Shown here one piece after another: positions 8,989 through 61,075 of a stretch of DNA of 64,000 nucleotides. The stretch covers positions 1-64,000 of the forward strand of contig JALCBJ010000003.1 in NCBI GenBank assembly GCA_028066595.1. Direction: 5' to 3'. Source of the stretch: Thermoanaerobaculia bacterium. GTDB taxonomy: Bacteria > Acidobacteriota > Thermoanaerobaculia > Multivoradales > J023. Below the pieces are notes generated by a model. That model ran no database searches. It worked only from the letters and a program-made list of their open reading frames with translations, and was not told the origin of the DNA. Each line of letters starts with the position of its first letter. Position 1 is the stretch's first letter. The position numbers were made by a program, and so were the translations under genes.

Positions 8989-11900
8989 CTAGTCGCTGTC
9001 GACGGCCAGCCGCGCTCCGGTGGAGTAGGCCACGAACTCTGGTGCGTACATGGACTGGAGCTGGGCCGGGCCGACGCGGAATCGTCCTGCCGTCGCGGCA
9101 CGGACCCTGTACTTGAGCACGTACTGGCCTGCGGGTAGCCACTCGAAGAAGAAGTTCGTGGCACTGTCACGGATCTCGCGGTAGTGCCCCAAACCATCCC
9201 AGCGGTAGCCGGACGTGAGGTCTTCGGGCTCGAAGCCCGCGCCCCGGGGATCGCGCAGATGCACGTACTCCGCAGCATGGCCGGCCCGAATGTCCAGCTG
9301 CACCTCCAGCTGATCGCCGACCGCGAGGGATGCGCCCTCGGCCAACGGTTCGAGGGTCCACTCGTCGCCCCGCAGCACCCGCCGGAAGTACCGGCGTTCG
9401 ACCCGGAAGAGATCGCCCTCGGCCTTCTCGGGAAGCTGATCCGTGGCGAAATGCCACGTGGCCGAGGCGAGCAAGAATCCCTGCGTCTCCTTCGAGATCT
9501 CGATCTCCCCCATCGCAGGCTCGACCTCGTCCCCCTCGATCACCCACTGCTGCCGGCGATCCGAGGCCTCGGCCTCCGCGCCCGCGAAGACGAAGCTGCG
9601 CTCCTCCCTCCCGACACGCACCGTCGCGGCCTCGCGGATACCCAGTAGATCCCGACTCTTCAGGTAGTGGACCAGGGAGTAGATCACCTCGGCCGTGGCT
9701 CTCGTCGACTTCCAGTGGTTCAACTTCTTCTGCACCAGCAGCCACTGCGCCAGACCCGAGAGACGCTCGTCGTCCGGATCCAGCTCGGCCACCACCCGGA
9801 GAGCGAAGGCGTGCGTCTCGATCGTGTCGTGGTACCAGAGCCAGGCCATCTTCTCCGGCGCCCAGTAGGTGCCGAGATCCTCGTCGGTCCGTGCCGAATC
9901 CATCACGCTGTCCCACACCAGCTGGGCGTCCTCGCCACGGCCCGCCCGCTGCAGCGTCAGTGCCAGGTAGCCCTTGATGCGCGGCGCCAGGACGCGCCAG
10001 TCCCGGAAGCCGTAGTCCAGGAGCCGTTGCCGGTCCTCGGCGGTGAAGTACCCACCGGTCCAGCTCTCGTCCGGGTAGTTCGACAGCATCCAGTTCAGGT
10101 AGACCGCCAGCTGGAGGCAGCAGCTGGCCTGCTCCGCCATCCGGGGTGCCAGCTCCTGGCGGAAGTGATCCTCCAGGTATCGCCACGCGCGGACCACAGG
10201 CTCCTGCGGTACCTCGACACCGAACTCCAGGGCCCGCGAGAACGAGTCCAGAACGTACAGGGTCATGTACGGTGACGGGGGGCCGCCCGGCCACCACGGG
10301 AAGGCGCCCGACGCGGTCTGCGACTTCAGAACCCGGTCCAGGGATTCGTCGCGCACCTGGCCTGCGATCTCCGGGTCCAGGACCTTGCGCAGGTCCGCCC
10401 CGGAGTCACCACCCCGTGCGGTGCGCAGCCATGGCGTCTCTTCGAGCAGGAGTCTGCGGTTCGGATCGTCCGTGGACCAGGTTTCGTATTGGGTGTCCCG
10501 TTCGTCGGCCAAGCCCTGGGCCAGCTCCGCCACCATGGGATGGTCGTCGAAGACCTGGCGCACGATGCCGGTGGAGACGAAGCGATTCAGGCTCTGCTCC
10601 GTGCACGAGTACGGGTACTCGACCAGGTACGGCAGCGCGTTCAGCACCGTGGTGAGCAGCTGACCGTCCAGGGTCATCACCAGCGACTCGCTCTCCCGCG
10701 TGGGATCGTCGTCGGCCAGCAGGTCCTCGAAGCGCAGATGCCTCGTTTCCGCGCGGTCGAGCACGGCAAAGCGCGACTGCGACAGGTACAGCCGCGACGG
10801 CAGCACGGGGAGGGGCCGCAGCTCGCCATCGGACCAGTCGCCGGCCCGGCCGACCACGCGCACCGCGATCTCCCCCGGATCCTTGGGTGCGGTGACGTCG
10901 AAGCGCAACGTCGTCTGCCCTCCCGCGACCACCTCAAAGGGGACCTTCACATCGGCCGGAGACAGGCCGAAGTCATGCAATCTCGACACCTCGGTGTCGG
11001 GGTCGACGAGGTCGAAGTCGAGCTCTCCCGAGAGCCGCTCCTCTCCTTGATTCGATACCACCACCCGCAGCTGTGCTTCGTCCCCTTCACGGAAGAACCG
11101 AGGCAGGTACGGACGTACCAGCAGATCCTTCGACGTGCGGACCGTGGTCTCGAAGCTGCCGGCACGGAAGTCCTGCGTCAACGCACGCAGCCACACACGC
11201 CACTCCGTGACCGCATCGGGTACCTCGAACTCGAAGCGCACCGAACCATCCTCGGTCAACAGCAGATGAGGCTCCCAGAACGAGGTCTCCGAGAAGTCCG
11301 TACGCAGCTCCTCACCCACAGGTGCGTCTCCACTGCCCGGCGCCTCGTCGCCTACGGTCGTTGCGACCACCACTTCGTTCTGCGCGTTCTCTTCTCTGAG
11401 CGCTCCACCGTCGAGTGCGGCCGCTCTACTCTGGAGTGCTACCGACTCGGGTGCCGGCGATGCGGGCAGAGGCATGGCCTTGGCCACTGACCGCCGCATC
11501 ATGTCGCCCCGCCGGCGACCCGGGCCACCCACCGGATAGCTGTCGAAAAAGATCAGGCGATCGTCTCGGAGGCTGGGTACCGAATGCCGGGCCGTGGGGT
11601 GGCGCCCGAATACCCGCGCACCCACCGCCAAGCCAGCCGTCGCAGACCAGCCCGGCGCATGGGTCCAGCTCCTCCAGCTGCGCTCCGGGCTGGGCGGCCG
11701 GTGAGGTGCGAAGAGGTCGAGGCTTCGATCGTACATGGACGCCAGGACCTCGGCCGCGCGGGCACCCAGGGCCTCGCCATCTGCATCGCGGACGGTCACC
11801 GTCCAGGTCTCTTCTGAACCCGGACGCAGGAGATCCCTGAAGCTCGAGAGCTCCACCCGTAGATTCTTGTCGGTCCATGGGACCTGTACATACGCTTGTT

Positions 11901-14900
11901 GGCGCAATAACTGGTGGTCGCGTACCAGGGTCACGTCGAAGAGCAGGCTGCCGCGATGCTCTCTGGAAACAGGAATCTCGATCCGATGCGGTGTACCTCC
12001 TGCGAGCACCTCCCGTCGCAGGCGGTCGTCAGCGCTCCAGACCTCCACCAAGACATCCTGACCGAGCCAGCCTGTATGTACCGTCGCCACGGCGTTGTCG
12101 CCGACCTCGACGGACGGCGATTCGGCCACGACGAGAAGGGGCAACGGCGGCAAGTCGTCGCGCCCCATCACCACGAAGCGCGATTCCGCATCGACGGCGA
12201 TCGGATCGCGCCCGGCGGACGCGCCCGCGTCCCGCGTCTCATAGCGCAGCGCGTAGGCTCCTACCGGAAGTCCCTCCGGCCACTCGATCTCCTCCGAGAC
12301 TTGCTCGTCGTGCCGTAGAGTGCCCGAGGCCACCGCCTCACCGTCGCTCCACCGCCGCAAAACCGACTGAACGTCTATCGACGCTCCGGCCCACCGTGGC
12401 CGTTGGAGATCGCCGGTCGTACGGTAGGGCGCTGGCTGCCCGTCACCCGAAGACGACTCCGGTAGGTTCGCCGGCACCTCCGACGGCAAGGTCGGCTCGT
12501 CCGGCGGCACCAGACGCCGGAGAGTCCAGCTGCCCTCGCCGGGGTTCGCTGCACCCTCCAGGTTGGTACGCGTCACCTCGACCGCGAAAGCCTCATCCTC
12601 GTCCAGCTGGGGGGAAATCACGACCGTGGCCTGGACCGTGATGAAGCCGGCACGCAGAGTGGTCTGCCCCTCACGCGTCTCGCCGCCCGGATCGGTGACC
12701 TCGGCCTCGATGTGGAAAGAGTAGGCGACCTGCCGGCCCAGCGGGCGCTCCGACAGCGCTGGATCCGCCTCGGGAACGAAGCGGAACCGAAAGGTCCCGT
12801 CAGGTTCGACCTCGGTCTCGCCTGAGGCCAACACCTGCGCTGGTCCGGGGCGGAACCATCTCACACGCCAATACCACCAATGCGGCAGGATCGGAGACCG
12901 CGTGACCCGCCAGCTGACCCGTCCGTCGGTCACCGGAGCTCCGAAGAAGTAGCGCGCTTCGCCCGCCAGCTCGGCCACATGACCGAACCGCAGGGACTCG
13001 TCGGGGTTCTTCACCGCCACCTCGAAGGTCGGCCGTTTGTACTCCTCGACCCTCAGGCTGCTGTGACCATTCCAGGAAGTCGACAGCGTCCAATGACCGA
13101 GTGTTCGACCCGAAGGGATCCGGAAGCTGCCCGACGCGGAGCCCCAGTTGTTCGTCGTCACCTCTTCGCTCGCAACCTCTTCTCCGTTGGTATCCACCAG
13201 GCGGACCGTCACCGGCTCTTCAGCCTGGATCTCCGCCCAGGTGCCGTCGACATTGCGCTGATACGCGACGACCTTCCACTGGATCTCCTGGCCTGGGCGA
13301 TAGATGGCACGGTCCGTATAGAGCAGACTCTGCTGCTGTATCTCGGGAGGCTCGTAGTGAGAGCCCACCCAGGTCTCGTGATGCACGCTGTCGCCACCCC
13401 GGCGGGCGACGATGCGATATTGACCACCCTTCGGCAGGTGCAGCGGCATCTCGCCGCCGGCGTCTGTGACGCCGCGGGACGTTACTCGGTGTCCCGCTTG
13501 CCAGTCCAGGTGCCAGGCCTCCACCTCCACGCCGGAGAGCGGTTCGCCGTCCTCCGCCGATCGAACTTCGGTCTGCAACCTGCCACCGCCGTCCTGTCGA
13601 ACGAAGAGAAAGAGGTCGGTGATCCTGTGCTCGACGTAGTAGACGAGGTCATCGGTAATCCGGAAATCCGGATCGGTGTCTGCTGCCAGAACGTAGGAGC
13701 CGTGCTTCTCAAGCGGCGGTGTGACGAAAGTCTGGTGGTTTCGCAAATCAGGAGTCGGTGGCAACTCCACTTGCCACGACACTTCCGGTTCCCGACCGAG
13801 AAGAGCCTGCAGGTCTTGATTCCGCACGTCGAAACGATCTCGGCCGCGGCGCAGCCTCTGGTCGACGTCCCAGCTCCAAGCCCGCCAATACAGGCGTTCG
13901 ACGTTGGCGTGTTGCACCTGGATCGACCTTCGTCCGCTGCCGTCGTTCCGGGCGGCCTGGATCGACACCCGCGGCGCTTCCCAGCCCTCTACCAATGACG
14001 CACACCGCCGACCGCCCAGGCTGTTCGGATGGGTGATCCGGCATTCCTCCGCCAGGTCGCGGCCGTCACGGGTTCCCCACGACTCCTCCGACGCAGCCGT
14101 CATCTCGGCCAGGTCAGCCTGGCCCATCGCCCACCACGGGTAGTCGCGGCCGAGACGGTCGAGTGCATGCACCAAGGCTTCTCGCAGCGACCGCTTCTCG
14201 CGCGGATTCGTGAACGCAGTGGTCAGTCTGGAGACGAGGGTCCTCCGTGCGTCGAACGCCGCCTCCGGCCGATCTTCCTTCCGGTGCCAAGCCTCCAGGT
14301 CGGCCAGAATCGCCCAGATCTTGCGCAGAGGGTGGACCTCAGTGTCCACGAGCAACGACTGCACCTCGGCGTCGGGCTCCACGGGACGTAGCAGCTCCTC
14401 GACGTCGAGCTTCCAGATCTCGTTCGAATGCCTCGGCGACCATAGCGAGCGATCCGCCAGCAAGCTCACCCACAGATGGCTGACACTGTCTCGCAACGTG
14501 CCTCGGATGCGCGCCGGATAGCTATTCTGCTCCAAGAAACGGGCCATCTCGCCCAACGCGCCGTCTCCCCACCCTCGGCGCATCGTCCAAGCGTCGGAGA
14601 AGGCGGCGTGGATCTCGTCGCTGATCTGGTCCATCGTCCACTGATCGAGATCGGCGTCGGGCGACGTCGTGCGCTCGCGTTGACGGATCTGCCAGCTGTA
14701 GGCCTGCTGGTAGAGCCGGAGAGTATGGGCGTAGAAGAGCCGGTGGACCAGTACCGCATCTGGCGCTTCGGGCCAAAGGCCGGATTCCTGGGCATCGTAA
14801 AGGAACCGAACGGTGCGCTCGTAGCCGTGCAAAACCGTCTCCAGCTGAGTCTCGCGCACCAAAGCCTTGAGCAGCTCGTCGGTATCTCCCGCGCCTTGCG

Positions 14901-15159
14901 CCTGATGGCGCAGGGCGATCACCGACTCCAGAGCCGCTTGGTACTTCTGCTCGCTGATCTGGCGTTCCACCTCAGCCCACATGGCCGTTTCATTCATGCT
15001 CCGGGTCTCCGATTCGTCAGGCTCCGCCGACGTCGCGGACGGTGAGAAGCCACCCACCAGAATCAGAACCGCCGCGAAGCTTGCGAGGGCTGTCCGGATG
15101 AGTGTCCGGAAACGCGACGTCGTCTCGTGTCGATCGCGGGTCACTTCGTTTCGTTCCAT
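8989..15159 (-). CDS. Alpha-2-macroglobulin family protein (MG2 domains, thioester motif)
   Basis: Signal peptide; MG-domain motifs (SLLYTDRAIYRPGQEIQWKVVAYQR, TDFSETSFWEPHLLLTEDGSVRFEFEVPDAVTEWRVW), thioester-like YPYSCTEQSLNRF; ~2056 aa. Confidence 0.92.
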   Translation of the reverse strand: MERNEVTRDRHETTSRFRTLIRTALASFAAVLILVGGFSPSATSAEPDESETRSMNETAMWAEVERQISEQKYQAALESVIALRHQAQGAGDTDELLKALVRETQLETVLHGYERTVRFLYDAQESGLWPEAPDAVLVHRLFYAHTLRLYQQAYSWQIRQRERTTSPDADLDQWTMDQISDEIHAAFSDAWTMRRGWGDGALGEMARFLEQNSYPARIRGTLRDSVSHLWVSLLADRSLWSPRHSNEIWKLDVEELLRPVEPDAEVQSLLVDTEVHPLRKIWAILADLEAWHRKEDRPEAAFDARRTLVSRLTTAFTNPREKRSLREALVHALDRLGRDYPWWAMGQADLAEMTAASEESWGTRDGRDLAEECRITHPNSLGGRRCASLVEGWEAPRVSIQAARNDGSGRRSIQVQHANVERLYWRAWSWDVDQRLRRGRDRFDVRNQDLQALLGREPEVSWQVELPPTPDLRNHQTFVTPPLEKHGSYVLAADTDPDFRITDDLVYYVEHRITDLFLFVRQDGGGRLQTEVRSAEDGEPLSGVEVEAWHLDWQAGHRVTSRGVTDAGGEMPLHLPKGGQYRIVARRGGDSVHHETWVGSHYEPPEIQQQSLLYTDRAIYRPGQEIQWKVVAYQRNVDGTWAEIQAEEPVTVRLVDTNGEEVASEEVTTNNWGSASGSFRIPSGRTLGHWTLSTSWNGHSSLRVEEYKRPTFEVAVKNPDESLRFGHVAELAGEARYFFGAPVTDGRVSWRVTRSPILPHWWYWRVRWFRPGPAQVLASGETEVEPDGTFRFRFVPEADPALSERPLGRQVAYSFHIEAEVTDPGGETREGQTTLRAGFITVQATVVISPQLDEDEAFAVEVTRTNLEGAANPGEGSWTLRRLVPPDEPTLPSEVPANLPESSSGDGQPAPYRTTGDLQRPRWAGASIDVQSVLRRWSDGEAVASGTLRHDEQVSEEIEWPEGLPVGAYALRYETRDAGASAGRDPIAVDAESRFVVMGRDDLPPLPLLVVAESPSVEVGDNAVATVHTGWLGQDVLVEVWSADDRLRREVLAGGTPHRIEIPVSREHRGSLLFDVTLVRDHQLLRQQAYVQVPWTDKNLRVELSSFRDLLRPGSEETWTVTVRDADGEALGARAAEVLASMYDRSLDLFAPHRPPSPERSWRSWTHAPGWSATAGLAVGARVFGRHPTARHSVPSLRDDRLIFFDSYPVGGPGRRRGDMMRRSVAKAMPLPASPAPESVALQSRAAALDGGALREENAQNEVVVATTVGDEAPGSGDAPVGEELRTDFSETSFWEPHLLLTEDGSVRFEFEVPDAVTEWRVWLRALTQDFRAGSFETTVRTSKDLLVRPYLPRFFREGDEAQLRVVVSNQGEERLSGELDFDLVDPDTEVSRLHDFGLSPADVKVPFEVVAGGQTTLRFDVTAPKDPGEIAVRVVGRAGDWSDGELRPLPVLPSRLYLSQSRFAVLDRAETRHLRFEDLLADDDPTRESESLVMTLDGQLLTTVLNALPYLVEYPYSCTEQSLNRFVSTGIVRQVFDDHPMVAELAQGLADERDTQYETWSTDDPNRRLLLEETPWLRTARGGDSGADLRKVLDPEIAGQVRDESLDRVLKSQTASGAFPWWPGGPPSPYMTLYVLDSFSRALEFGVEVPQEPVVRAWRYLEDHFRQELAPRMAEQASCCLQLAVYLNWMLSNYPDESWTGGYFTAEDRQRLLDYGFRDWRVLAPRIKGYLALTLQRAGRGEDAQLVWDSVMDSARTDEDLGTYWAPEKMAWLWYHDTIETHAFALRVVAELDPDDERLSGLAQWLLVQKKLNHWKSTRATAEVIYSLVHYLKSRDLLGIREAATVRVGREERSFVFAGAEAEASDRRQQWVIEGDEVEPAMGEIEISKETQGFLLASATWHFATDQLPEKAEGDLFRVERRYFRRVLRGDEWTLEPLAEGASLAVGDQLEVQLDIRAGHAAEYVHLRDPRGAGFEPEDLTSGYRWDGLGHYREIRDSATNFFFEWLPAGQYVLKYRVRAATAGRFRVGPAQLQSMYAPEFVAYSTGARLAVDSD

Positions 15160-15278
15160 CTTTGCCTCGTGGCCGTCGTCTGAAAGGGAAGAAGGCAAGC
15201 TGTACCATGCTAGTCTGCCGCTACTCGATTGGACCCGTCACAGCTGGAAAATGCAACCGAGCGATCGCGCCCGGCCGT

Positions 15279-15965: not shown

Positions 15966-18900
15966 ATGCACGCACCTCGTTCCGTCCTTCGTCCGATCCG
16001 ACTGACTCTGATCGTCACCGCGTTTCTCATGGCGTGGGCCGGTTCGGCCGAAGAGCCGTCCTCGACCGCAGGTCAGCTGCGCGACCTGGGACTCGCGCAA
16101 TTGGAGAACGAACATCCCGATCAGGCCGAAGCGACCTATCGCGAGCTCCTGGAGCTGCGTCCGAGAGATCCATTGGGACACGGCAATCTCGCGATCGCTT
16201 TGTTGCGTCAGCAGAAGTACGACGCTGCTCTGGAAACGATCGACGAAGCGCTTGCGTTGGCACCCCGACAGGCGGATCTGTTGGCGATACGTGGCGAGGT
16301 GTTGCAATGGAGAGGTGACCTAGATGCCGCTCTAAAGGAACTCGACGCAGCTGCCCGGGCCGACACCGACGATCCGGAGATCCTCTACTCCGCGTACCAA
16401 CTCGCCTCGACCCTCGATAGCCCAGAAGCTGAAGCCGTGGCGGCACGCACCTTGGACCGGCTGGTGAAGCTGCGCCCCGAGAACGTCGTGGTCCTGCTCC
16501 AGAAGGGCCAGCACGCCATCGCCGACGATGACCGTGCATCAGCCACAGCAGTGTACCTGCGCATCGGCGAGCTGCTCTGGCAGGCACAGCCGCTAGCCGA
16601 ACGCGCCCTCGAGATGGTGACGGCCTCGCTCGAGAGCGGCGACGGTCTCTCGTCCGCACGTGTGCCAGCGCTGCGATTGGAGAACGTGCTCAAGGTCAGT
16701 CCCATGTTTCGGGAGAGCCTGCGCGAGCTCAAGACCGGTATTCAAGGGATCCCGCTGGCCCGATTCCTCGACCAGCCCGAGATCGATGAATTCGGTGCTC
16801 CCACCGAGATCCGCTTCGTCGGCCGACGCCTGGCGGAGACACCGACGGCGGGCCGCGGCCTGGTGGCGGGTTCATTCCGAGACCCTGCTGCAGAGGAGGA
16901 CCTTCAGCCCAGCATCGCCAGACTCAGACAGGACGGGAAGCTGGAGATCCTCGAGGCCGACGGCACCAAAGGCTGGAAAGTCGTCGAGGAGCTCGACGCT
17001 GCCGTGGAGCCGGGACCCGTCGCGAGTCAGATCTTGGCAGTGGACGTGGACAACGACGGCTGGCCGGATCTGGTGGCCTGCGGTCCAGGACATTGCGTGG
17101 CCTATCGCGGCTCTCAGGAAGGGTTCGTCGCAGCACCCGATCAGTTCGGCCTCGGAACGGCGGGTGCGGCGGCCCTCGAGACCGTCGATTTCGACATCGA
17201 GGGTGATTTGGATCTTGTGAGCGTCGGCGCCGCGGAAGGTCCAGCCGCCGAACTGTGGCGCAACGCGCTCTCCGGACCCCTGGAGGCGGTGGGCCACCGC
17301 TCCTTTCCCGAGACCGTGGCCCGGCTGAAGAACACGCGGGCCGTCTTCGCGTCCGATCTGGATCGCGACGGCGATCTCGATCTGGCGATCGGTCATGGCG
17401 GAGGAGTGAGCTTCCTCGCCAATCTAAGGCAGGGTGGATTCGAAGATCGAACGGACTCGACCGGACTTGCCGAGACCAAGGCCGCAGCCGACGTGGTGGC
17501 CGCCGACCTCGACGGCGACGGTCGCCCCGAGCTGATCACCGCCCTCCTGGGGCTCCGTGTATGGCACAACCGGGGAGCGTCTCCCGACGAGACACGGTTC
17601 GAGCTGACCAGCCCAGCAGGACTGCCTGCCACCGGCGTGTTTCATCGGATCGTAGCGTTCGACGCCGACAACGATGGCCGCCTCGACCTCGCCGCAGCAG
17701 GCCCCGCCGGCGTCGGCATCTGGCAGCAGCTGGCAGACGGTGGGTTCCAGGCGATCCCGACCGACGGAGCGCCCGCCGCTTCGGCCTTCGCACGGGCCAA
17801 CGCGCTGGAGGCCGCAGACGTCGATGCCGATGGTGACCTCGATCTCCTGGTGGGCTCGGACGAAGGCCTCCACTGGTTGGAGAATCAGGGTGGATCGAAA
17901 AACGGCTGGCTTCGCATCCGCCTGCGCGGCCTCGACAAGGGTTCGAGCAAGAACAATCTGTTCGGAGTCGGTTCCGTCGTCGAGGTGCGCAACGGCAATG
18001 CCTACCAGTTCCGCGAGGCCCGCGGTGACGTCGTCCACCTCGGCCTCGGCAGCTCTGCCGAGGCAGAAGTGCTCCGGGTGGTCTGGACCAACGGGGTGCC
18101 CCAGAACCGACTCGACGTGACCAAGAGCCAGCGCATCGTAGAGGAGCAGCTGCTGAAAGGCAGCTGTCCGTTCCTCTACGCCTGGGACGGCGAGGGCTTC
18201 CGCTTCGTCACCGACCTCCTCTGGGGTTCACCCCTGGGCCTGCCGGCCGGAGAAGGTACGTGGGTCCCGGCCGATCCGTCGGAGCTGGTGCGCGTGGACG
18301 GACTGGTGTCCGAAGACGGTATCTACCGGCTGCGCGTGACCGAGGAGCTGTGGGAGGCCGCATTCTTCGACAAGGCGAGACTCTGGGTCGTGGACCATCC
18401 CGCCGGCATGGAGGTGGCTTCGGCGCTGCGCATCGTCCCGGGGGCTGCCGGCACACCAGAGGAAGTGCGTGCTCTCCCACGGTTGAGGAATGTGACGTCG
18501 GCGATCGACGGCCGAGGTCGTGACGTGACGGCCCGCGTTGCACGCCGCGACGACGTCTACGCCGATGGCTACGGCCCGAGTCCCTACCAAGGCGTGGCGG
18601 AGGAGTGGACGTTCACCTTCGATCTCGGAGAGACACCCGGCGGCGCGATCCGTCTAGCGCTCGACGGTTGGATTTTTCCCGCCGATGCGAGTCTCAATCT
18701 CGCCGTCTCTCAGCGTTCCGATTACCCCTACGTTCCCCCACGTCTGGAAGTCGAGACCGAGGATGGCTGGCAGGAGCTTATGCCCAGCTTCGGGCCGACC
18801 GCCTTCGGGCATCCCGCCGGCAAGACCAAGACGATGGTGGTGGATACTCCCCCGCTCCCTCGTGACGCTCGGCGACTACGTCTGGTCACATCGCTTTGGC

Positions 18901-19442
18901 TGCACTGGGACCGCATCGCCTGGATGCCGCTTGACGAGGCTCGTGCCGCCGACGCCCTACCCTCGGTCATCGCCCAGTTGGAACCCAACCGCTCGATTCT
19001 TCACTACCGCGGATTCTCCCAGCTGGTTCGCCAGGCGCCCAACGCTCCCCATCGATTCGACTACGCCCGCGTCCGAATCGACTCACCCTGGATCGACTTC
19101 CCCGGTGGCTACACCCGCTACGGTGACGTGGGTCCGCTCCTGACGGAAGTCGACGACTTTTCCGTAGTTCTGGCACCGGGCGACGAGATGATCCTCGATT
19201 TCGACGCCGCCCATCTCGCGCCACCCGCCGACGGTCTCGTCCGCACGTTGTTCTTGGAAAGCTGGGGGTGGGACAAAGACGCCGATCGCAACACGTGGCA
19301 GGCACCGCAGGTAGGGCCCTTACCTTTCCACGCGATGGGGTCCTATCCCTATCCGGAGGGTGTGAGCTATCCGGACTCGCCGGAGCACGAGCGCTACGTC
19401 GAAGAATGGCAGACGCGCGAGCGAGGCACGCCGAATCGGTGA
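15966..19442 (+). CDS. Secreted TPR + FG-GAP/VCBS + ASPIC/UnbV domain protein
   Basis: Signal peptide, N-terminal TPRs, calcium-type DxDxDGxxDL repeats (DVDNDGWPDLV, DLDRDGDLDLAIG, DADNDGRLDLA, DVDADGDLDLLVG), then UnbV-like NGWLRIRLRGLDKGSSKNNLFGVGSVVEVRNG. Confidence 0.9.
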   Translation: MHAPRSVLRPIRLTLIVTAFLMAWAGSAEEPSSTAGQLRDLGLAQLENEHPDQAEATYRELLELRPRDPLGHGNLAIALLRQQKYDAALETIDEALALAPRQADLLAIRGEVLQWRGDLDAALKELDAAARADTDDPEILYSAYQLASTLDSPEAEAVAARTLDRLVKLRPENVVVLLQKGQHAIADDDRASATAVYLRIGELLWQAQPLAERALEMVTASLESGDGLSSARVPALRLENVLKVSPMFRESLRELKTGIQGIPLARFLDQPEIDEFGAPTEIRFVGRRLAETPTAGRGLVAGSFRDPAAEEDLQPSIARLRQDGKLEILEADGTKGWKVVEELDAAVEPGPVASQILAVDVDNDGWPDLVACGPGHCVAYRGSQEGFVAAPDQFGLGTAGAAALETVDFDIEGDLDLVSVGAAEGPAAELWRNALSGPLEAVGHRSFPETVARLKNTRAVFASDLDRDGDLDLAIGHGGGVSFLANLRQGGFEDRTDSTGLAETKAAADVVAADLDGDGRPELITALLGLRVWHNRGASPDETRFELTSPAGLPATGVFHRIVAFDADNDGRLDLAAAGPAGVGIWQQLADGGFQAIPTDGAPAASAFARANALEAADVDADGDLDLLVGSDEGLHWLENQGGSKNGWLRIRLRGLDKGSSKNNLFGVGSVVEVRNGNAYQFREARGDVVHLGLGSSAEAEVLRVVWTNGVPQNRLDVTKSQRIVEEQLLKGSCPFLYAWDGEGFRFVTDLLWGSPLGLPAGEGTWVPADPSELVRVDGLVSEDGIYRLRVTEELWEAAFFDKARLWVVDHPAGMEVASALRIVPGAAGTPEEVRALPRLRNVTSAIDGRGRDVTARVARRDDVYADGYGPSPYQGVAEEWTFTFDLGETPGGAIRLALDGWIFPADASLNLAVSQRSDYPYVPPRLEVETEDGWQELMPSFGPTAFGHPAGKTKTMVVDTPPLPRDARRLRLVTSLWLHWDRIAWMPLDEARAADALPSVIAQLEPNRSILHYRGFSQLVRQAPNAPHRFDYARVRIDSPWIDFPGGYTRYGDVGPLLTEVDDFSVVLAPGDEMILDFDAAHLAPPADGLVRTLFLESWGWDKDADRNTWQAPQVGPLPFHAMGSYPYPEGVSYPDSPEHERYVEEWQTRERGTPNR

Positions 19443-52912: not shown

Positions 52913-55900
52913 CTATTCCACTGCCAGCTCGTCGTAGCGCACCACCGGCAGCGTGATTCCGAGGCGCAGTCCGGCCACCCCGGGTCCAGCCAGCCTGTGG
53001 TTCTGCTCGTGGAACAACGGCAATAGCAAGGCTTGGCGGTGGATGTGATCTTCGGCGCTGCGATAGAGAGCATGGCGCAACGCCGGATCGAGCTCGGTGC
53101 GAGCTTGCTCCACCAGGCGTTCCAAATCGACATCGCGATGGGCAGACCGCAGCAGACCACTCTGGGACTGCCAGAGACCGCTGAAGAAACAGTCAGCATC
53201 CGGGTAGACCGCGACCCAACGGGCGAGTAGCAGGTCGGCTTCTCCCCGTCGGGCCAGATCGTCGAACTCGCCCAATCGGAGCTCCAGGATGTTCAGCCGG
53301 ATTCCGAGACTCTCGAGCTGCTGGACCAGATGCGAGGCGAAGGAAGAATAGGTGCGGACGAAGATCGGATGTAAAGCCAGCGAGAGCTGAAGCCCTTCGA
53401 GCGTGTGGGAGGCTGGCTCCTCACCACCTCGCTGGACCCGTGGCGACTCGTAGCCCAAGAGGCCTGGTGGCAGGAGTCCTTGGGCCCGTGTGGCCAAGCG
53501 TCCCATGGACTCGGTTACTGCCTGCTTGCGGTCGATGGCACGGAACAGAGAGTGCCGAAGTGCAGTATCGGACAGGACCCCGCGGCTTGAGTTGGCCGCC
53601 AAGAAATAGGTCGCCAGGCTAGGGGATTCGACACGGCCGCTTTCCACCGCGGGATCACGACGCAGGCTCTCGAGGTCCTCCGGGCTGAGATGTCCGGCCA
53701 GGGACAGCCGGCCACCACGAAAGTCCGTCGCGATCTGCTCGCTGTCGGTCTCCCGATGAAAAACGAGGCGCTCGCAACGTGGACTCCCCTCCCGCCAATA
53801 GTCCGGGAAACGTTCCAGGTCGAGTCGCTCGCGGACATCGAAAGAGACCACCCGAAAGGGTCCCGTGCCGCAACAACCATCGCGCCAGTGACCGTCGAAA
53901 GACTCGGTATTCTCCGGCACGATCACCGTGGCGGGATGTGACAGGAGCACCGGGAAGAAGGCCAGCGGTCGATCGAGCTCGATGCGTAGCTCGTGCGGCG
54001 ACTCGATCACCAAACCTGCGAGGTCGTCGACGTCGCCGCGTGCCATTGCCGGTGCCCCTCGAATCGACTGCAGCAAGTAGCGCAGGGCGTCGCTCACTCT
54101 CAACAGACGCTCGAAGCTCCACCGCACATCGCGGGCCGTCATCCTGCGACCGTCGTGGAAGCGGACGTCCTGACGCAAACGAACGCGATAGAGCCTTCCT
54201 CCATGGAGCGACTCGAGAGATTCCGCGAGCCATGGCTGGACCTGCACCTGGTCATCGAGCCGGGTCAAGGTCTCGAACACGTTGAGCAGCACGTCGTGAT
54301 GCTCCAACAAATGCCCCTCCGCGGCGTCGAGCACATGGAGGTCCGCCGGCGTGGGGACGTGGATCTCTCCGCCACTCGGCCACGCATGGCTCCGGGTTTC
54401 TTCCGAGCCAGAGCGAGTCGCGTCGGAGTAGCTCACGAAGGGCGGCGAGCTGGACAGCTGGATGCCCTTCCATTTCGGAGCCACGACTCGATAGTCGATG
54501 TCGTGGAACAACGGAAGCAGCGCCGACTCCTTCTCCACCAGATCCTGAAACTGCCGATACTGGTTCTGCCGTACGCCGGGCCTGCGTTCGCGTCGCGCTG
54601 AATCCAGGATCCGAGTGGCCTCCGGCAGGTCGAAGAAGTTTCGGAAGATGCCCGACTCGCGATTGACCAGAGCCCAGGTGTAGTTGTCCGGATCGTCGTA
54701 GGCTGGGTTCCATCGCGCAATGAGCAGGTCGAGGGCATCGCGGTGCTCCGGATCGTCGACCGAACGCACAAAGCCCTTGACGTCCTCTACCTCGATCGAC
54801 ACTTCGAGCCCGGCTCGCGACCAGATCTCCACGAGGGACTGGAGGAAGGGGCCGAAACGATCTCGAAACAGAGGGTGGACCGATGCTGCCAGCCGCAGCG
54901 GAAGCTCGAAGCCAGCGGCCTCCAAAGAGGCCACGGCGTCTTCCGGGCGCATAGATTCTGGGCGGCGACCTGCGTCGTGTCCGAGAACACCTGGCGGGAT
55001 CAACCCGATGGCAGGCATGGCAAACCGTCCCAAACTGCGCCACACCAGGTCGAGCACCGGCACCGAACGCGCCAAGACCCTGCGTATCTCGGGCCGGCGG
55101 CTCCACGGCCCCCGAGGATTGAAGAGCGCGAAGTACGTATTCTTCTTCACCGTCTCCACCAGACCGGGGCGCAACTTCGGCCTGCGTAGGAGCTCTTCTA
55201 GATCGTCCGACCGAAGGTCGCGGCCGACGTCGATCTCACCCTTCTGCAAGCCGGCTGCGATCTCCGAGGAACGACGAAAGACCCGGAATTCGAGGCGATC
55301 GATTCTCGGACGCTGGCCGCGCCAATGAGGATTCTCCTCGAGCACGACGCGCTCAGAAGCCCTGTTGACGAAACGAAATGGCCCGGTTCCGAGGAGCTCC
55401 TGTCCGGTGTCGCGGACGACCGCGGTGCGCAAATCGGTGAGCAGAGCGGGGAAAATCGGCAGCTTCTCGCGCAGGCGAAAGACCAGTCCGCGGCTCGCAG
55501 GCGGCCCGGATCCGGAGCTCGGACCAAGACTCAGGGTGAGATCTCCTCCATCGATCTCGATACCGGAAACCGTGTCGGAGCTGCCCGCGAGAAACGCACG
55601 CACCCCTGCGATCGCCTCGAACGCAGGAGGCTGAAGATCGGCACGCAAACGGACACTGCGCTCCAGGGAAGCCTTGACCGCCGCCGCATCCACCGGCTCC
55701 CCGTCGGAGAACAGAAGGTCGGGACGCAATGTGAAATGGAAGAGCTGCCCATCATCGGAGCTACTCCACTTGTCGCACAGGCCCGCGACTACCAGACCGT
55801 CGCTGCCGGAACCGAGGAGCGTTTCGAACACATTCGCCCCGACCTCCCACTCTTCCATGAAGAGGAACTTGCCCGGGTCCACGCTGACCAGTGGTGTCGC

Positions 55901-58741
55901 CAGAGCCGTCACCAAACTCCCACCTTGTCGTGCTTCTTGTTCCTCGCCACCCTCGACGCGTCCCTCGGACAGGGATCGCAGCTCCTGTACCCAGCCCCTA
56001 GGAGGTGGCTCGCCACGAAGGTTCGAGATCGTGACACCGAGCTCCAACAGCCGTCGGAGGCATTCCATGTCACCAGCGAAGCGGGCACGAGGCACACCTC
56101 GCTCCACCCATCGCCGCACGTCCTCCATCCGCCGCGCCTGCCACGCCACCTCGGCTCCGAGGCGTGCCAGAGAGGCGATCTCGACGACAGGCGGACGCCG
56201 AATGTCGCCCGAGTCCATACGCCACTCTCCGGAGCTACCCTCTTCGGAGGCATCGTCGCCCTCCTCTTCTACGCGACCCCAAGCCTCCGTCGCGCGTTCG
56301 GCCTCTTGCAGCGACCGGCCGAGACGCCCGAGGTCGCGATAGGCGGCGGCGAGGATCCCAGTGAGCTCCGCCAGCAAGCGATCTGCCCTCTCGACTTCCT
56401 CCTCTTCCACGAACTCGAGGGCCACCCGCGCGGCACGCACCGCATCTTCCGGACTGAAGCTGTCCAGAGAACGTCGAGCCAGAGCCAGGCCGTAGCGCAC
56501 CGTGGCGTCGGCCTCATCAGCGGCCCGAAAGTGATCCACGAGTTGGGGCAGTACGCGCTCCAATCGACCGGAATAGCGCTCTTCCAAGCGCCGCGCGTAG
56601 ATGCGGTGGAGCGATCGCCTCCGGCGCCGGCTGAGCTCTTGGTAGAGGAGATCCCGCAGCACACCGCTGGCGAACGTCAGGCGATCGCCACGGCTTTTGC
56701 GATCCTCGACCAACAGGCCGTGAGACACCAGCTCGTCCACGAGCTCGTCCACCGCACAGCCACCGTCGAAAGCAGACTCGGCCAAAGCCTCCAGCTCTGT
56801 GAAGCCGAAGCTCTTACCCAGTACCGCGGCGACCGAGAGCATGCTCCTCTGCTCTGGCTCCAAGCGCTCGATGCGCCGTTCTTCGGCCTGCTGGATGGTC
56901 GCCGGCAACGTGCTCGTTCCGAGGCTCACATAGTCTGCCAAGCCATAGACACCGGTCTCGTCCCGCGCCATGGCACCCGATTCGAGTAGTCCCTGCACTA
57001 ACTCTTGGGTGAAAAGTGGGTTTCCTTCAGTCGCCTCGTAGATCCGTTCCACGAGGTCACCACGCATATTCTTCGAGCCCACCAGCGCCGAGACCTGCGC
57101 CTCGACCTCGTTGCGACTCAACGCCCGCAGCTCCAGACGCCGAAATCGCGGATCGGTGGCGAATCCCTCCATCAGGCGCTGCAACGGATGCCCCTTGACT
57201 GTCTCACTCGGACGGTAGGTGCCGACGATCAATGTCGGCGTCGAACCCAGCCGTCGCACCAGGTACTGGAGTGCTTCGATCGCCACTTCGGCGGCATGAA
57301 GGTTCTCCTGCACCAAGACGAGCGGCCATCCCCCACCGAGACGAACCAGAGTCCGGGCCAGTAGCTCGAAGACGAAGATAGGATCCGCTACTCTCTGCGC
57401 TGGTGGTCGAGTCTCCCGAAGCAACTCCCTAGCGAGAACTGGCGACGAGGTTTCCAGAGCGTGCCGCAACTCCGGCACTTCCGATAACTCGGGAAAGAGC
57501 GACACAAGGTCTGGCGCCAGGTCTCCGAGCTCAGGTTCCGCGTCTGAGGCGTCGACGAACGCTCCAGCGGAGCTGCTGGACGGCCTCCGGGTGCGAAAGT
57601 AGTCCTGGATCAGGTCGCAGAGACCCTGGAAGGGAAAGGCGGACTCGAACTCCGAGAAGCGCCCTCTCAGAACCCGAACCCGATGTGAGCGGGCGACTGC
57701 TTCCAGCTCCTGGAGCAGGCGCGTCTTGCCTGTACCGGCCTCGCCACCGAGCACTACCAGCTGGCACTCGCCCGCCAGTGCCATTTTCAGACACTCCTGG
57801 AGCTGCGCCAGCTCCTCGTCACGTCCGATCAACGGCAAGCGGCGTATCGGAATCACCCGTAGGCGTCCACGATCGAGGGTAGTGGAACGTTGCCGTGCTG
57901 CCTCGGAGAGTTGTCGGCGGTGATCCTCGAGCTCATCCGCCAGCTCGTCACCCGACGCCGGGCGCCGGTTCCGGTCCTTGGACAGGCAGCGCAGAATGAT
58001 CCCTTCGAGACGCGGGTCTATGTCGATGCCACGGCTGCGCAGGGGCTGAGGTGCCTCATGGAGAATACGGTAGAGCGTCGAGTACACGGTTCCCGTAAAC
58101 GGCGGCTCCCCGGCCATACATTCATAGAGGAGGGTACCCAGGGAGTAGATGTCGCTCCGGCCGTCGAGCGGGTCCGCGGCATCGTTCTCTTCCACCTGCT
58201 CCGGACTGAGATAGGCCAGCGTGCCCGGCAAGTTACCAGTACGGGTCAATCCGCTTTCGGAGCTGCGCCGTTGCGCCAAGCCGAAGTCCATCAGGCGCAC
58301 CCGCAGCTGTTCTCCTTCCCGTGCCACCAGGACATTCGAGGGCTTCACGTCACGATGTACGACCCCGCGACTATGACTGTAGGCCAGCGCGCGCGCAGCC
58401 TGGGCGCCGACTTCCAGAAGCTCTCCCAAAGTCAACGGAGCGGAACGGATCAGCGAGCGCAGGGTATCGCCCCGCACCAAAGGCATCACCAGAAACAACG
58501 ACCGCTCGTGCTGGCCCAAGTCGTGGATCGGCACGATACCCGGATGATCGAGGCGAGCCACCGTCCTCGCCTCACGCCGAATGCGCTGCTCGGACTCTTC
58601 GTCGAGCCGGGCCGGTGGAATCATCTTGACCGCCACATCGCGCTGCAGGAGAGGGTCCCACGCTCGATAGACCACACCCATGCCGCCCCGGCCCAGCTCG
58701 CCGGTGATCTCGTAGCGGTCCGACAGTACTTGTCCGATCAT
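52913..58741 (-). CDS. Ser/Thr protein kinase - AAA ATPase - helical repeat - tandem SBP_bac_5-like (peptide-binding) fusion, 1942 aa
   Basis: Kinase aa ~10-273 (GRGGMGVVYRAWD, VAVKM, HRDVKPSN, DFG, SPEQ); ATPase aa ~303-510 (Walker A GGEAGTGKT); SBP-like domain 1 aa ~940-1440 (GTGPFRFVNRAS, FALFNPRGPWSRRPEIRRVLARSV, GLIPPGVLG, DLLIARWNPAYDDPDNY); SBP-like domain 2 aa ~1458-1942 (GTGPFRVVSFD, DTALRHSLFRAIDRKQAV, GLLPPGLLG, LLLARWVAVYPDADCFF). No evident signal peptide or TM helix. Confidence 0.9.
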   Translation of the reverse strand: MIGQVLSDRYEITGELGRGGMGVVYRAWDPLLQRDVAVKMIPPARLDEESEQRIRREARTVARLDHPGIVPIHDLGQHERSLFLVMPLVRGDTLRSLIRSAPLTLGELLEVGAQAARALAYSHSRGVVHRDVKPSNVLVAREGEQLRVRLMDFGLAQRRSSESGLTRTGNLPGTLAYLSPEQVEENDAADPLDGRSDIYSLGTLLYECMAGEPPFTGTVYSTLYRILHEAPQPLRSRGIDIDPRLEGIILRCLSKDRNRRPASGDELADELEDHRRQLSEAARQRSTTLDRGRLRVIPIRRLPLIGRDEELAQLQECLKMALAGECQLVVLGGEAGTGKTRLLQELEAVARSHRVRVLRGRFSEFESAFPFQGLCDLIQDYFRTRRPSSSSAGAFVDASDAEPELGDLAPDLVSLFPELSEVPELRHALETSSPVLARELLRETRPPAQRVADPIFVFELLARTLVRLGGGWPLVLVQENLHAAEVAIEALQYLVRRLGSTPTLIVGTYRPSETVKGHPLQRLMEGFATDPRFRRLELRALSRNEVEAQVSALVGSKNMRGDLVERIYEATEGNPLFTQELVQGLLESGAMARDETGVYGLADYVSLGTSTLPATIQQAEERRIERLEPEQRSMLSVAAVLGKSFGFTELEALAESAFDGGCAVDELVDELVSHGLLVEDRKSRGDRLTFASGVLRDLLYQELSRRRRRSLHRIYARRLEERYSGRLERVLPQLVDHFRAADEADATVRYGLALARRSLDSFSPEDAVRAARVALEFVEEEEVERADRLLAELTGILAAAYRDLGRLGRSLQEAERATEAWGRVEEEGDDASEEGSSGEWRMDSGDIRRPPVVEIASLARLGAEVAWQARRMEDVRRWVERGVPRARFAGDMECLRRLLELGVTISNLRGEPPPRGWVQELRSLSEGRVEGGEEQEARQGGSLVTALATPLVSVDPGKFLFMEEWEVGANVFETLLGSGSDGLVVAGLCDKWSSSDDGQLFHFTLRPDLLFSDGEPVDAAAVKASLERSVRLRADLQPPAFEAIAGVRAFLAGSSDTVSGIEIDGGDLTLSLGPSSGSGPPASRGLVFRLREKLPIFPALLTDLRTAVVRDTGQELLGTGPFRFVNRASERVVLEENPHWRGQRPRIDRLEFRVFRRSSEIAAGLQKGEIDVGRDLRSDDLEELLRRPKLRPGLVETVKKNTYFALFNPRGPWSRRPEIRRVLARSVPVLDLVWRSLGRFAMPAIGLIPPGVLGHDAGRRPESMRPEDAVASLEAAGFELPLRLAASVHPLFRDRFGPFLQSLVEIWSRAGLEVSIEVEDVKGFVRSVDDPEHRDALDLLIARWNPAYDDPDNYTWALVNRESGIFRNFFDLPEATRILDSARRERRPGVRQNQYRQFQDLVEKESALLPLFHDIDYRVVAPKWKGIQLSSSPPFVSYSDATRSGSEETRSHAWPSGGEIHVPTPADLHVLDAAEGHLLEHHDVLLNVFETLTRLDDQVQVQPWLAESLESLHGGRLYRVRLRQDVRFHDGRRMTARDVRWSFERLLRVSDALRYLLQSIRGAPAMARGDVDDLAGLVIESPHELRIELDRPLAFFPVLLSHPATVIVPENTESFDGHWRDGCCGTGPFRVVSFDVRERLDLERFPDYWREGSPRCERLVFHRETDSEQIATDFRGGRLSLAGHLSPEDLESLRRDPAVESGRVESPSLATYFLAANSSRGVLSDTALRHSLFRAIDRKQAVTESMGRLATRAQGLLPPGLLGYESPRVQRGGEEPASHTLEGLQLSLALHPIFVRTYSSFASHLVQQLESLGIRLNILELRLGEFDDLARRGEADLLLARWVAVYPDADCFFSGLWQSQSGLLRSAHRDVDLERLVEQARTELDPALRHALYRSAEDHIHRQALLLPLFHEQNHRLAGPGVAGLRLGITLPVVRYDELAVE

Positions 58742-58789: not shown

Positions 58790-61075
58790 TCACGGCCTCG
58801 TCTCTAGACCTACGTCCCAGAGCACCTGACGAAAGCGCTCCAGCCTGCGTAGCGAATCGTAGAGCGGGTCGACGCCCAGCCACACGAGATCCGACGTACG
58901 TTGGCGCAGGGCTCGGTCGAGTACGGAGAGTGCCATTTCGTGCTCTCCCAGGGCAGCGTAGATCTGCACGACGAGCGTCGGAGGCACGAATTGGCCATCT
59001 CGTGGATTGAGCAGCTTGTCGGCCAAAGAGTACGCCTGCTCTTCATGACCGAGCTTCGCGTGGAGCACACCCAAGGTGGTGGTCACCTGCGGCCGATCTT
59101 CCGACAACTCCGAGGCTCGGGCAGCCACATCCAAGGCCTCCTGGCGACGACCTCCCGCACCCAGCGCATGGGCAAGGAATACCAGCGCGAGTACGAACCT
59201 CCCGTCGAGCTCCAGCACTCGGCGGTAGTGCTTGACGGCCTCGTCGTAGCGGCCTGCGTAGTAGGCCGTGAGGCCCATGCTTGTGCGGACGGGTAGAGAT
59301 GTCGGTTGCAGGCGCGCTGCCCGTTTCAGTTCCTCGAATGCCTCGTCGAAACGCCGTCGGGGCACCAGGGCGTTCATTGCGAACCACTGGTACGCGGTGG
59401 CGTAGTTGGGATCGAGCTCGATCGCGCGCCGAAAATCCGACGACGCACCCACCAGATCCCAGTTGTAACAAGAACGAACACATCCGCGGGACGTGTAGGC
59501 CTCGGCGAGTTGTCCATCGAGCTCAAGGGCCCTCTCCGCCGCCAGCTTGGCGCGCGGCATGACGTCGGACGGCGGACGGATGCCGTAGATGCCCAGAAGA
59601 GTGAAACAGTCCGCCAACCCGGCATGAGCCCGAGCGTAGCCAGGCTCTTCGTCGATGGCGGCCTCGAAGTACTCGATGGCCTTCTGCATGTCGGCCTCGG
59701 TACGTTTGTTCCAACGGTAACGACCCTTCAGGTAGAAGTCGTACGCCTCTAGATTGACATCGTCGGTGGCACCCGGACGCTTGGTATGAAGCCGGTCGCC
59801 GAGCAGCGGTGCCTCCAGAGCCGAGGCGATGCGGCCCGCGATGTCCTCTTCGATGTCGAAGACCTCGGCGACCTCGCGATCGTACTTCTCCGACCACAAG
59901 ACCTCGCCGTCTTCCAGTTGCACCATCCGAGCCGTAACGCGCACCCGTCCGGCGGCGAACCGCACGGCACCCTCCAGGGCATTGGCCACCCGAAGGCGCC
60001 GGGCTATGGTGTCGTGACCGGATCCGGCGTCGTGATCCGCGATTCTCACGACCCGCAGCCCCGGAACCGCCGACAGCAGGGTGATCAGCTCCTCTGCCAG
60101 TCCAAAGGCGAAATGAGCCTGGTCACCCTGGGGCGACATGTCGCGAAACGGCAAGACCGCCACCGACGGTCGCCCGCCGGTGGAGCTCGTGAGATCCACC
60201 GTGCCGGTGTGACTGAATGCCTCCGCGGCCAGAGAGGCGGCGTCGGGCTCCGCTCCGGGACCCTGCGGCTCACCGTCTCGCTGTAGATCGACCAGTAGCT
60301 CTTCGGCAGAACCATACCGGTCGTCCGGATCCTTCGCCAGCAGCCATCCCAGGATCTTGTTGATGCGGGCGCAGGCTTCCTCGCCATAGCCAGCGACCGG
60401 CCAGTGGCTGTTCCTGAGGATCGCACGCCGTGTCTCTTTCTGGTTCGGGCCTTTGAACGGCTTTTTCCCCGTCAGCATGTAGTGAAAGACAATGCCTAGG
60501 GACCACAGGTCGGTACGCCGGTCGAGGGGACGCTTACGCAGCTGCTCCGGCGACATATAGGGAATCGTCCCCACGACCTGGTCACCCAAGGCGTGTTCCA
60601 CATCGGCCAGTTGGGCGATCCCGAAATCCAAGACTTTGACCCGCCCATCGTCCATGACCATGATGTTGCCGGGCTTGACATCGCGATGCACGATGCCAGC
60701 GCGATGGGCTGCAGCAAGACCCTGAGCCACTTGAATGGTGATGTCGTAGGCGCGCTCTAGATTCAGGGCGCCGCGACGCACCAGACCCGACAGGGTCTGG
60801 CCCTCGTAGTACGCCATCGCGATATAGAGCTGGGCGTCATCCGTCTCGCCGATCTGGTAGATCGTACAGATATTCGGATGGTCCAGGGCGGAAGCGGCTT
60901 GGGCCTCCTGCAGGAGCTGGGCTCGCGCCGACGACTTGCGCGCCACCTTGGCCGGAAGGAACTTGAGAGCCGCCGGCCGGCCAAGGCGCAGGTCACGCCC
61001 CAGGTACAGCTCCGACATGCCGCCGCTGCCCAGCCTCTCCTCGATCTTGTACTCGCCGATCGTCCTACCGATCAC
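58790..61075 (-). CDS. Ser/Thr protein kinase with TolB/FlgO-like domain and C-terminal TPRs (GTG start)
   Basis: VIGRTIGEYKIEERLGSGGMSELYLGRDLRLGRPAALKFLP, HRDVKPGNIMV, DFG, GTIPYMSPEQ; RPSVAVLPFRDMSPQGDQAHFAFGLAEELITLL...; TPRs. Longer ORF upstream of 61075 judged non-coding. Confidence 0.92.
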   Translation of the reverse strand: MIGRTIGEYKIEERLGSGGMSELYLGRDLRLGRPAALKFLPAKVARKSSARAQLLQEAQAASALDHPNICTIYQIGETDDAQLYIAMAYYEGQTLSGLVRRGALNLERAYDITIQVAQGLAAAHRAGIVHRDVKPGNIMVMDDGRVKVLDFGIAQLADVEHALGDQVVGTIPYMSPEQLRKRPLDRRTDLWSLGIVFHYMLTGKKPFKGPNQKETRRAILRNSHWPVAGYGEEACARINKILGWLLAKDPDDRYGSAEELLVDLQRDGEPQGPGAEPDAASLAAEAFSHTGTVDLTSSTGGRPSVAVLPFRDMSPQGDQAHFAFGLAEELITLLSAVPGLRVVRIADHDAGSGHDTIARRLRVANALEGAVRFAAGRVRVTARMVQLEDGEVLWSEKYDREVAEVFDIEEDIAGRIASALEAPLLGDRLHTKRPGATDDVNLEAYDFYLKGRYRWNKRTEADMQKAIEYFEAAIDEEPGYARAHAGLADCFTLLGIYGIRPPSDVMPRAKLAAERALELDGQLAEAYTSRGCVRSCYNWDLVGASSDFRRAIELDPNYATAYQWFAMNALVPRRRFDEAFEELKRAARLQPTSLPVRTSMGLTAYYAGRYDEAVKHYRRVLELDGRFVLALVFLAHALGAGGRRQEALDVAARASELSEDRPQVTTTLGVLHAKLGHEEQAYSLADKLLNPRDGQFVPPTLVVQIYAALGEHEMALSVLDRALRQRTSDLVWLGVDPLYDSLRRLERFRQVLWDVGLETRP

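Follow-up and report, generated by a model that had tools for sequence, protein, structure and literature searches.

The input signals of bacterial Ser/Thr kinases are mostly unknown. SBP_bac_5 domains, a class of solute-binding protein (SBP), are normally periplasmic. Kinase-AAA-TPR proteins, SBP-controlled kinases made of separate parts, a fusion of a kinase with an SBP of another type, and cytosolic SBP_bac_5 regulators are all already known. PknK ("kinase + MalT-like", PMC1262709) and the TOMM_kin_cyc proteins have an N-terminal Hanks-type kinase followed by an AAA_16 ATPase and helical repeats. GlnH-GlnX-PknG places a Ser/Thr kinase under the control of a solute-binding protein (PMC9769921) by means of a separate periplasmic SBP of another family and a membrane protein, with no fusion. 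The Streptomyces protein gi|21223285, tabulated in 2005, carries a kinase and a single extracellular solute-binding domain of the Glu/Gln type in one polypeptide; it was grouped with kinases that have periplasmic domains, and an AAA/TPR part is not mentioned (PMC1262709). SgrR and DsvR are one-component regulators that join an HTH to a cytosolic SBP_bac_5 domain, the output being DNA binding (PMC13060122).

Here we describe a 1942-aa protein from a Thermoanaerobaculia bacterium in which, as in PknK and TOMM_kin_cyc, a Hanks-type kinase precedes an AAA_16 ATPase and a helical region. It lacks their cyclase or HTH and ends instead in two SBP_bac_5 domains. The literature searched held no description of the kinase-AAA-tandem-SBP_bac_5 combination, of its conservation in two phyla, or of a sensor branch shared with chemoreceptors. 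The system had originally been predicted to be undescribed, which holds for this architecture in the literature searched, although fusions of a kinase with an extracellular-type SBP have been on record since 2005 (PMC1262709). Routine binding screens can find the ligands of the domain class to which the putative sensor belongs, and this sensor is fused directly to the kinase, so the input of an orphan Ser/Thr kinase becomes directly testable. Members of the same sensor branch also occur on chemoreceptors.

Gene and domain architecture

The window analyzed was a stretch of 64,000 nt (contig JALCBJ010000003.1, assembly GCA_028066595.1). The gene is one intact ORF with an ATG start, and the resulting N-terminus (MIG...) is common to most homologues. 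Its features, and those of the adjacent kinase gene, are as follows.

52913..58741, minus strand: whole gene, kinase - AAA_16/NOD-like - winged helix - TPR-like - SBP_bac_5 - SBP_bac_5 (ORF listing, Pfam)
57917..58741, minus strand: Ser/Thr (Hanks-type) kinase domain, residues 1-275 (Pfam, invariant columns, Foldseek)
56942..57835, minus strand: AAA_16 ATPase, nucleotide-binding and helical part, residues 303-600 (Pfam, motifs)
56666..56908, minus strand: predicted winged-helix domain, residues ~612-692 (from the helix/strand order in the AlphaFold2 secondary structure)
55958..56644, minus strand: TPR-like helical region, residues ~700-928 (AlphaFold2; TPR_12/TPR_MalT matches in homologues)
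54392..55921, minus strand: SBP1 (SBP_bac_5), residues 941-1450, with Ala1347 at the amine-anchor position (Pfam, model, Foldseek, alignment)
52916..54379, minus strand: SBP2 (SBP_bac_5), residues 1455-1942, with Val1845 at the amine-anchor position (Pfam, model, Foldseek, alignment)
58790..61075, minus strand: neighboring Ser/Thr kinase, TPRs at its C-terminus, probable GTG start near 61075 (ORF listing, Pfam)

Pfam matched every domain named in the original prediction (kinase, ATPase, and two SBP_bac_5 domains): Pkinase at residues 10-262 (2.1e-46), AAA_16 at residues 303-506 (3.5e-19), and SBP_bac_5 in two stretches, both complete (4.3e-102). The similarity of the C-terminal 1000 residues to SBP_bac_5 is overwhelming. 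SBP1 and SBP2 are 30% identical across ~500 residues (E 4e-57, with the C-terminal halves aligned). A predicted winged helix follows the AAA region, and TPR-like helices then extend to about residue 928. The prediction of a single-protein organization was borne out as well, since the joint between kinase and SBPs lies within one ORF here and in homologues of 39-47% identity from separate assemblies.

Kinase and ATPase parts

The kinase is probably catalytically competent, judging by its motifs. Lys39, Glu57, the HRD motif (H129-R130-D131), Asn136, the DFG motif (D152-F153-G154), and the SPE motif are all intact, and these residues, with P180-E181 for the last motif, were invariant in all 18 aligned homologues. 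The closest Foldseek match of this domain was PknB (5u94). A role as an anti-phage defense kinase was rejected, as the PADLOC matches (PD-T4-6, MAD6, and PglW) span the kinase domain only, as they would for any Hanks kinase.

The Walker A motif of the ATPase (residues 333-340, GEAGTGKT) is likewise conserved, with Gly333, Gly336, Gly338, and Lys339 invariant in 18/18 homologues. Walker B is degenerate, with E479-N480 where DD or DE is usual. Its first Asp is replaced by Glu in 16 of the 18 homologues, and in about half of them the next residue, normally acidic, is Asn, Gln, or His. With so atypical a Walker B, the protein may hydrolyze ATP weakly or not at all.

STAND ATPases have the domain order NBD-HD-WHD-arm/TPR (PMC6468293), and the predicted order of the 1942-aa protein matches it. 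A GxP motif (Gly573-Asn574-Pro575) lies within the helical domain, and AlphaFold2 placed a winged-helix order of helices and strands at ~612-692 and paired helices at 700-928. The model of residues 1-940 was good locally (pLDDT 79.9), with no confidence in the arrangement of domains (pTM 0.43). AAA_16 was matched in all family members, along with weak and scattered Pfam matches to nSTAND, NB-ARC, and TPR_MalT. These observations partly favor the STAND-like switch of the original prediction, whereas hhalign against MalT gave a probability of just 15%, confined to the TPR part. The NOD was not significant in that comparison, nor was direct homology of the AAA part to MalT. Sequence similarity and the model thus point weakly to a middle part that is STAND-like, not a proven STAND.

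Residues 280-799 align with positions 465-942 of TIGR03903 (whole-protein E 7.3e-70). The protein scored 236 bits against the TOMM_kin_cyc cut-off of 705.75 and has no cyclase domain, which places it outside that family. The genome of the window encodes three further relatives of the middle part that have AAA_16 but no SBPs; a kinase domain is present in two of these. This suggests that the SBPs are a sensor module added to an existing chassis.

Distribution of the family

The five-part order recurs in other genomes as single ORFs of ~1850-2300 aa (open frame). An assembly or frameshift artefact was thereby ruled out, as the order is found in one ORF in many independent genomes. The genome of the window holds a second copy of the kinase-SBP protein on another contig (C43), with 39% identity across the greater part of the SBP region. 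Another genome of the genus carries the full form twice and a single-SBP form once; among other genera of the same taxonomic family, one has three copies and a third has two.

In a scan of 84,980 species genomes, full-length relatives turned up among the Thermoanaerobaculia and Blastocatellia/Pyrinomonadaceae, among Acidobacteriota labelled Chloracidobacterium or "gp7", and in one Planctomycetota-labelled genome. In samples without overlap, the tandem-SBP kinase was detected in 14 of 396 genomes from the window's phylum, plus one partial copy, and in 5 of 294 from a second phylum. The second phylum is that of the Planctomycetota-labelled genome, its name being taken from the label of that one record; a check of that genome for a 16S gene gave none. 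Kinase, AAA, helical region, SBP1, and SBP2 share one frame in all five second-phylum copies; an internal TAG was reported for one second-phylum match (G505). Three family copies (L060, L061, and L063) are split over two frames within the SBP part and are either pseudogenes or sequencing errors. In other relatives, SBP_bac_5 matches were seen within open frames of ~900-1100 aa (L042:6383-9061, L043:6292-9186, and L044:6400-9732), which are perhaps further fusions, or else ordinary SBPs whose GC-rich frames happen to be long.

Predicted topology

The hydropathy scan of the 1942-aa protein found no transmembrane or signal segment. Its highest 19-residue mean was 1.26, compared to the usual membrane-segment threshold of 1.6 and to values of 1.7-3.0 in most of the standalone SBPs checked. 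Of four standalone SBPs examined from this genome and a relative, three had an N-terminal hydrophobic segment. Since the 1942-aa protein has none, both of its SBPs are predicted to be cytosolic, alongside the kinase, in agreement with the placement proposed originally. In homologues, the few segments above 1.6 lay either ahead of the start or inside a folded domain (SBP or kinase).

A periplasmic or membrane receptor was rejected for the 1942-aa protein on these grounds. The usual location of SBP_bac_5 domains would favor a membrane-spanning or exported receptor with extracellular SBPs, resembling the PknB-PASTA kinases or the Streptomyces fusion, and a kinase with an extracellular-type SBP has been tabulated (PMC1262709). 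Such an arrangement is nonetheless highly improbable, as the scan found no hydrophobic segment joining the kinase to the SBPs in either the 1942-aa protein or its homologues, and the N-terminal kinase and AAA parts require cytosolic ATP.

Fold and phylogeny of the SBPs

The model of residues 941-1942 (pLDDT 86.4, pTM 0.80) showed two SBPs of the periplasmic type, and both copies match the SBP_bac_5 family over their full length and in fold. The closest solved structures found by Foldseek for the tandem were peptide-binding SBPs: 8upi (4.5e-40), MppA, YliB, OppA, and DppA. Each SBP has the same fold as OppA, MppA, DppA, and NikA (Foldseek 1e-32 to 1e-40). Those proteins are periplasmic transport receptors, whereas the SBPs described here are predicted to be cytosolic, occur in tandem, and are fused to signaling domains. 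Neither a hydrophobic segment nor a recurrent permease among the neighbors marks them as SBPs of an ABC transporter.

On an IQ-TREE phylogeny of 72 domains, SBP1 and SBP2 formed separate, fully supported clades that were mutual sisters (100/100). FastTree on 134 domains agreed with this topology. As the two clades are separate sisters, SBP1 and SBP2 derive from a single ancient tandem duplication, older than the spread of the family.

Sister to the SBP1 and SBP2 pair, with a joint split at 93.4/97, was a group of SBP_bac_5 domains on chemoreceptor (MCP) proteins (L102-L123 and L149-L161, e.g., L118:7120-10464), which occur in many Acidobacteriota. These domains are C-terminal on proteins of mostly ~1000-1250 aa. 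An MCP signaling domain was present in all seven long proteins of this group that were scanned, and the MCP hairpin-tip motif was seen in most of its further members across the phylum. A hydrophobic hairpin or segment lies close to the N-terminus of the seven, with no other from the MCP domain to the SBP. Their SBP is C-terminal and apparently cytosolic, as in the 1942-aa protein; they differ in having a chemoreceptor output, one SBP, and the N-terminal hairpin. These MCP-borne SBPs may be of no less interest than the kinase.

The SBP of E. coli SgrR lay outside the kinase/MCP clade and was therefore recruited independently; it has Asn at the amine-anchor position. The 1942-aa protein lacks the HTH of the SgrR family and scored 46 bits against the NF010149 cut-off of 476. 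SBP1, SBP2, and the MCP-borne SBPs form one branch, which in the sampled set is found only on cytosolic signaling proteins. The fusion of the sister clade to chemoreceptor signaling domains also lends weight to the sensor role first proposed for the SBPs. We give even chances to a broader reading, that this branch of the peptide/nickel-type SBPs quit transport to serve as a general-purpose receptor within the cell, carried C-terminally by two unrelated outputs, STAND-like Ser/Thr kinases in Acidobacteriota and a second phylum and chemoreceptors in Acidobacteriota. Dedicated receptor kinases would then let these bacteria read solutes in the cytosol after uptake.

Ligand pocket

OppA Asp419 and DppA Asp408, which contact the amino terminus of the bound peptide, fall in one shared alignment column. 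DppA Arg383 (precursor numbering) falls within a DppA-specific insertion of the alignment. In the amine-anchor column, Asp was found in 29 of 36 SBP1 domains (Glu in a further four), 33 of 38 SBP2 domains, and 30 of 30 MCP-borne SBPs, that is, in 92/104 signaling SBPs compared to 10/30 of the other SBPs sampled. With the anchor retained so far above the standalone background, the family overall looks selected for amine-bearing ligands.

The 1942-aa protein has lost this residue twice (Ala1347 in SBP1, Val1845 in SBP2) and in this differs from the OppA/DppA-type peptide receptors. Its same-genus orthologue also lacks the Asp, with Thr and Val. A peptide, the ligand first suggested for this protein, therefore lost its support, and the pockets may be re-specialized or dead, with altered specificity or lost binding.

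The same loss, shared by the closest orthologue, keeps alive the main rival to a sensor role: that the SBPs are ligand-dead and act as a scaffold, a protein-protein docking or dimerization module that positions kinase substrates. The conservation of the motifs R-W, PLFH, and YR in SBP1 and SBP2 alike would fit this as well, as would the fairly defined predicted arrangement of the two SBPs (pTM 0.80). We consider a scaffold unlikely, however, given how strongly the pocket Asp is kept across the rest of the family. In addition, single-SBP kinases consisting of kinase, AAA, helical region, and SBP2 only exist (L041:6347-10525 and L131:2874-6920), so a scaffold with a fixed pair of SBPs is not a requirement.

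Proposed mechanism and genomic surroundings

What we read from the sequence is the architecture, an intact kinase and P-loop, the lack of membrane and signal segments, conservation in two phyla, the tandem duplication, and the sister relation to MCP-borne SBPs. We lean towards a soluble, cytosolic, one-component Ser/Thr receptor kinase controlled by a ligand through a STAND-like ATPase switch. The course that we infer, ligand and target included, leads from ligand binding over lobe closure and ATPase switching to oligomer-driven kinase activation. The C-terminal SBP pair would bind a small cytosolic solute. In most family members the ligand would carry a free amino group, for instance a peptide or a derivative of an amino acid, supplied by importers or turnover; the 1942-aa protein, having lost its amine anchor, would bind a different one. 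When the SBP lobes close, their contact with the TPR-like region would change, and the altered contact would free the ATP-bound, STAND-like AAA switch. The switch would then gather the N-terminal kinase domains, or unblock them, and these would phosphorylate one another before acting on target proteins, of which the neighboring kinase may be one. Importers able to deliver peptides to the cytosol do exist in this bacterium, as an Opp/Dpp-like SBP gene followed by two permease genes is found elsewhere in its genome. If the proposal is true, cytosolic solute-binding proteins are a receptor type that extends beyond the SgrR and DsvR examples.

The neighboring kinase gene lies upstream of the 1942-aa gene, 48 bp away on the same strand, and is a possible operon partner. 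An orthologue (48% identity) occupies the same place in the same-genus genome, and the pair is kept within the genus only. The proximity of a second kinase would suit an assembly platform, in which the ligand regulates the AAA/TPR part, the kinase is constitutive, and the output is oligomerization or recruitment, for example of the neighboring kinase, instead of catalysis. STAND proteins are described as working by inducer-dependent multimerization (PMC6468293, PMC4381067). That the pairing is confined to the genus speaks against such a platform, as does the conservation of all catalytic residues of the kinase, though the latter alone does not discriminate; we regard it as quite unlikely.

Downstream of the 1942-aa gene, the opposite-strand genes are presumably SUF genes, and the divergent gene beyond the neighboring kinase is presumably an OPT-like transporter, both named from translations. 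Neighbor clustering over 25 loci found no recurrent gene naming a ligand or target, which ruled out a conserved operon of that kind. The only recurrence was the same-genus kinase neighbor; elsewhere, the neighbors were unrelated and included generic kinases and TPR regulators. Two other large genes were observed in the window: 8989-15198 (minus strand) encodes a 2069-aa bacterial alpha-2-macroglobulin-like protein with MG2, A2M, and bMG10 domains, and 15966-19442 (plus strand) encodes a protein of 1158 aa that starts with TPRs and also has FG-GAP repeats and a weak match to UnbV_ASPIC.
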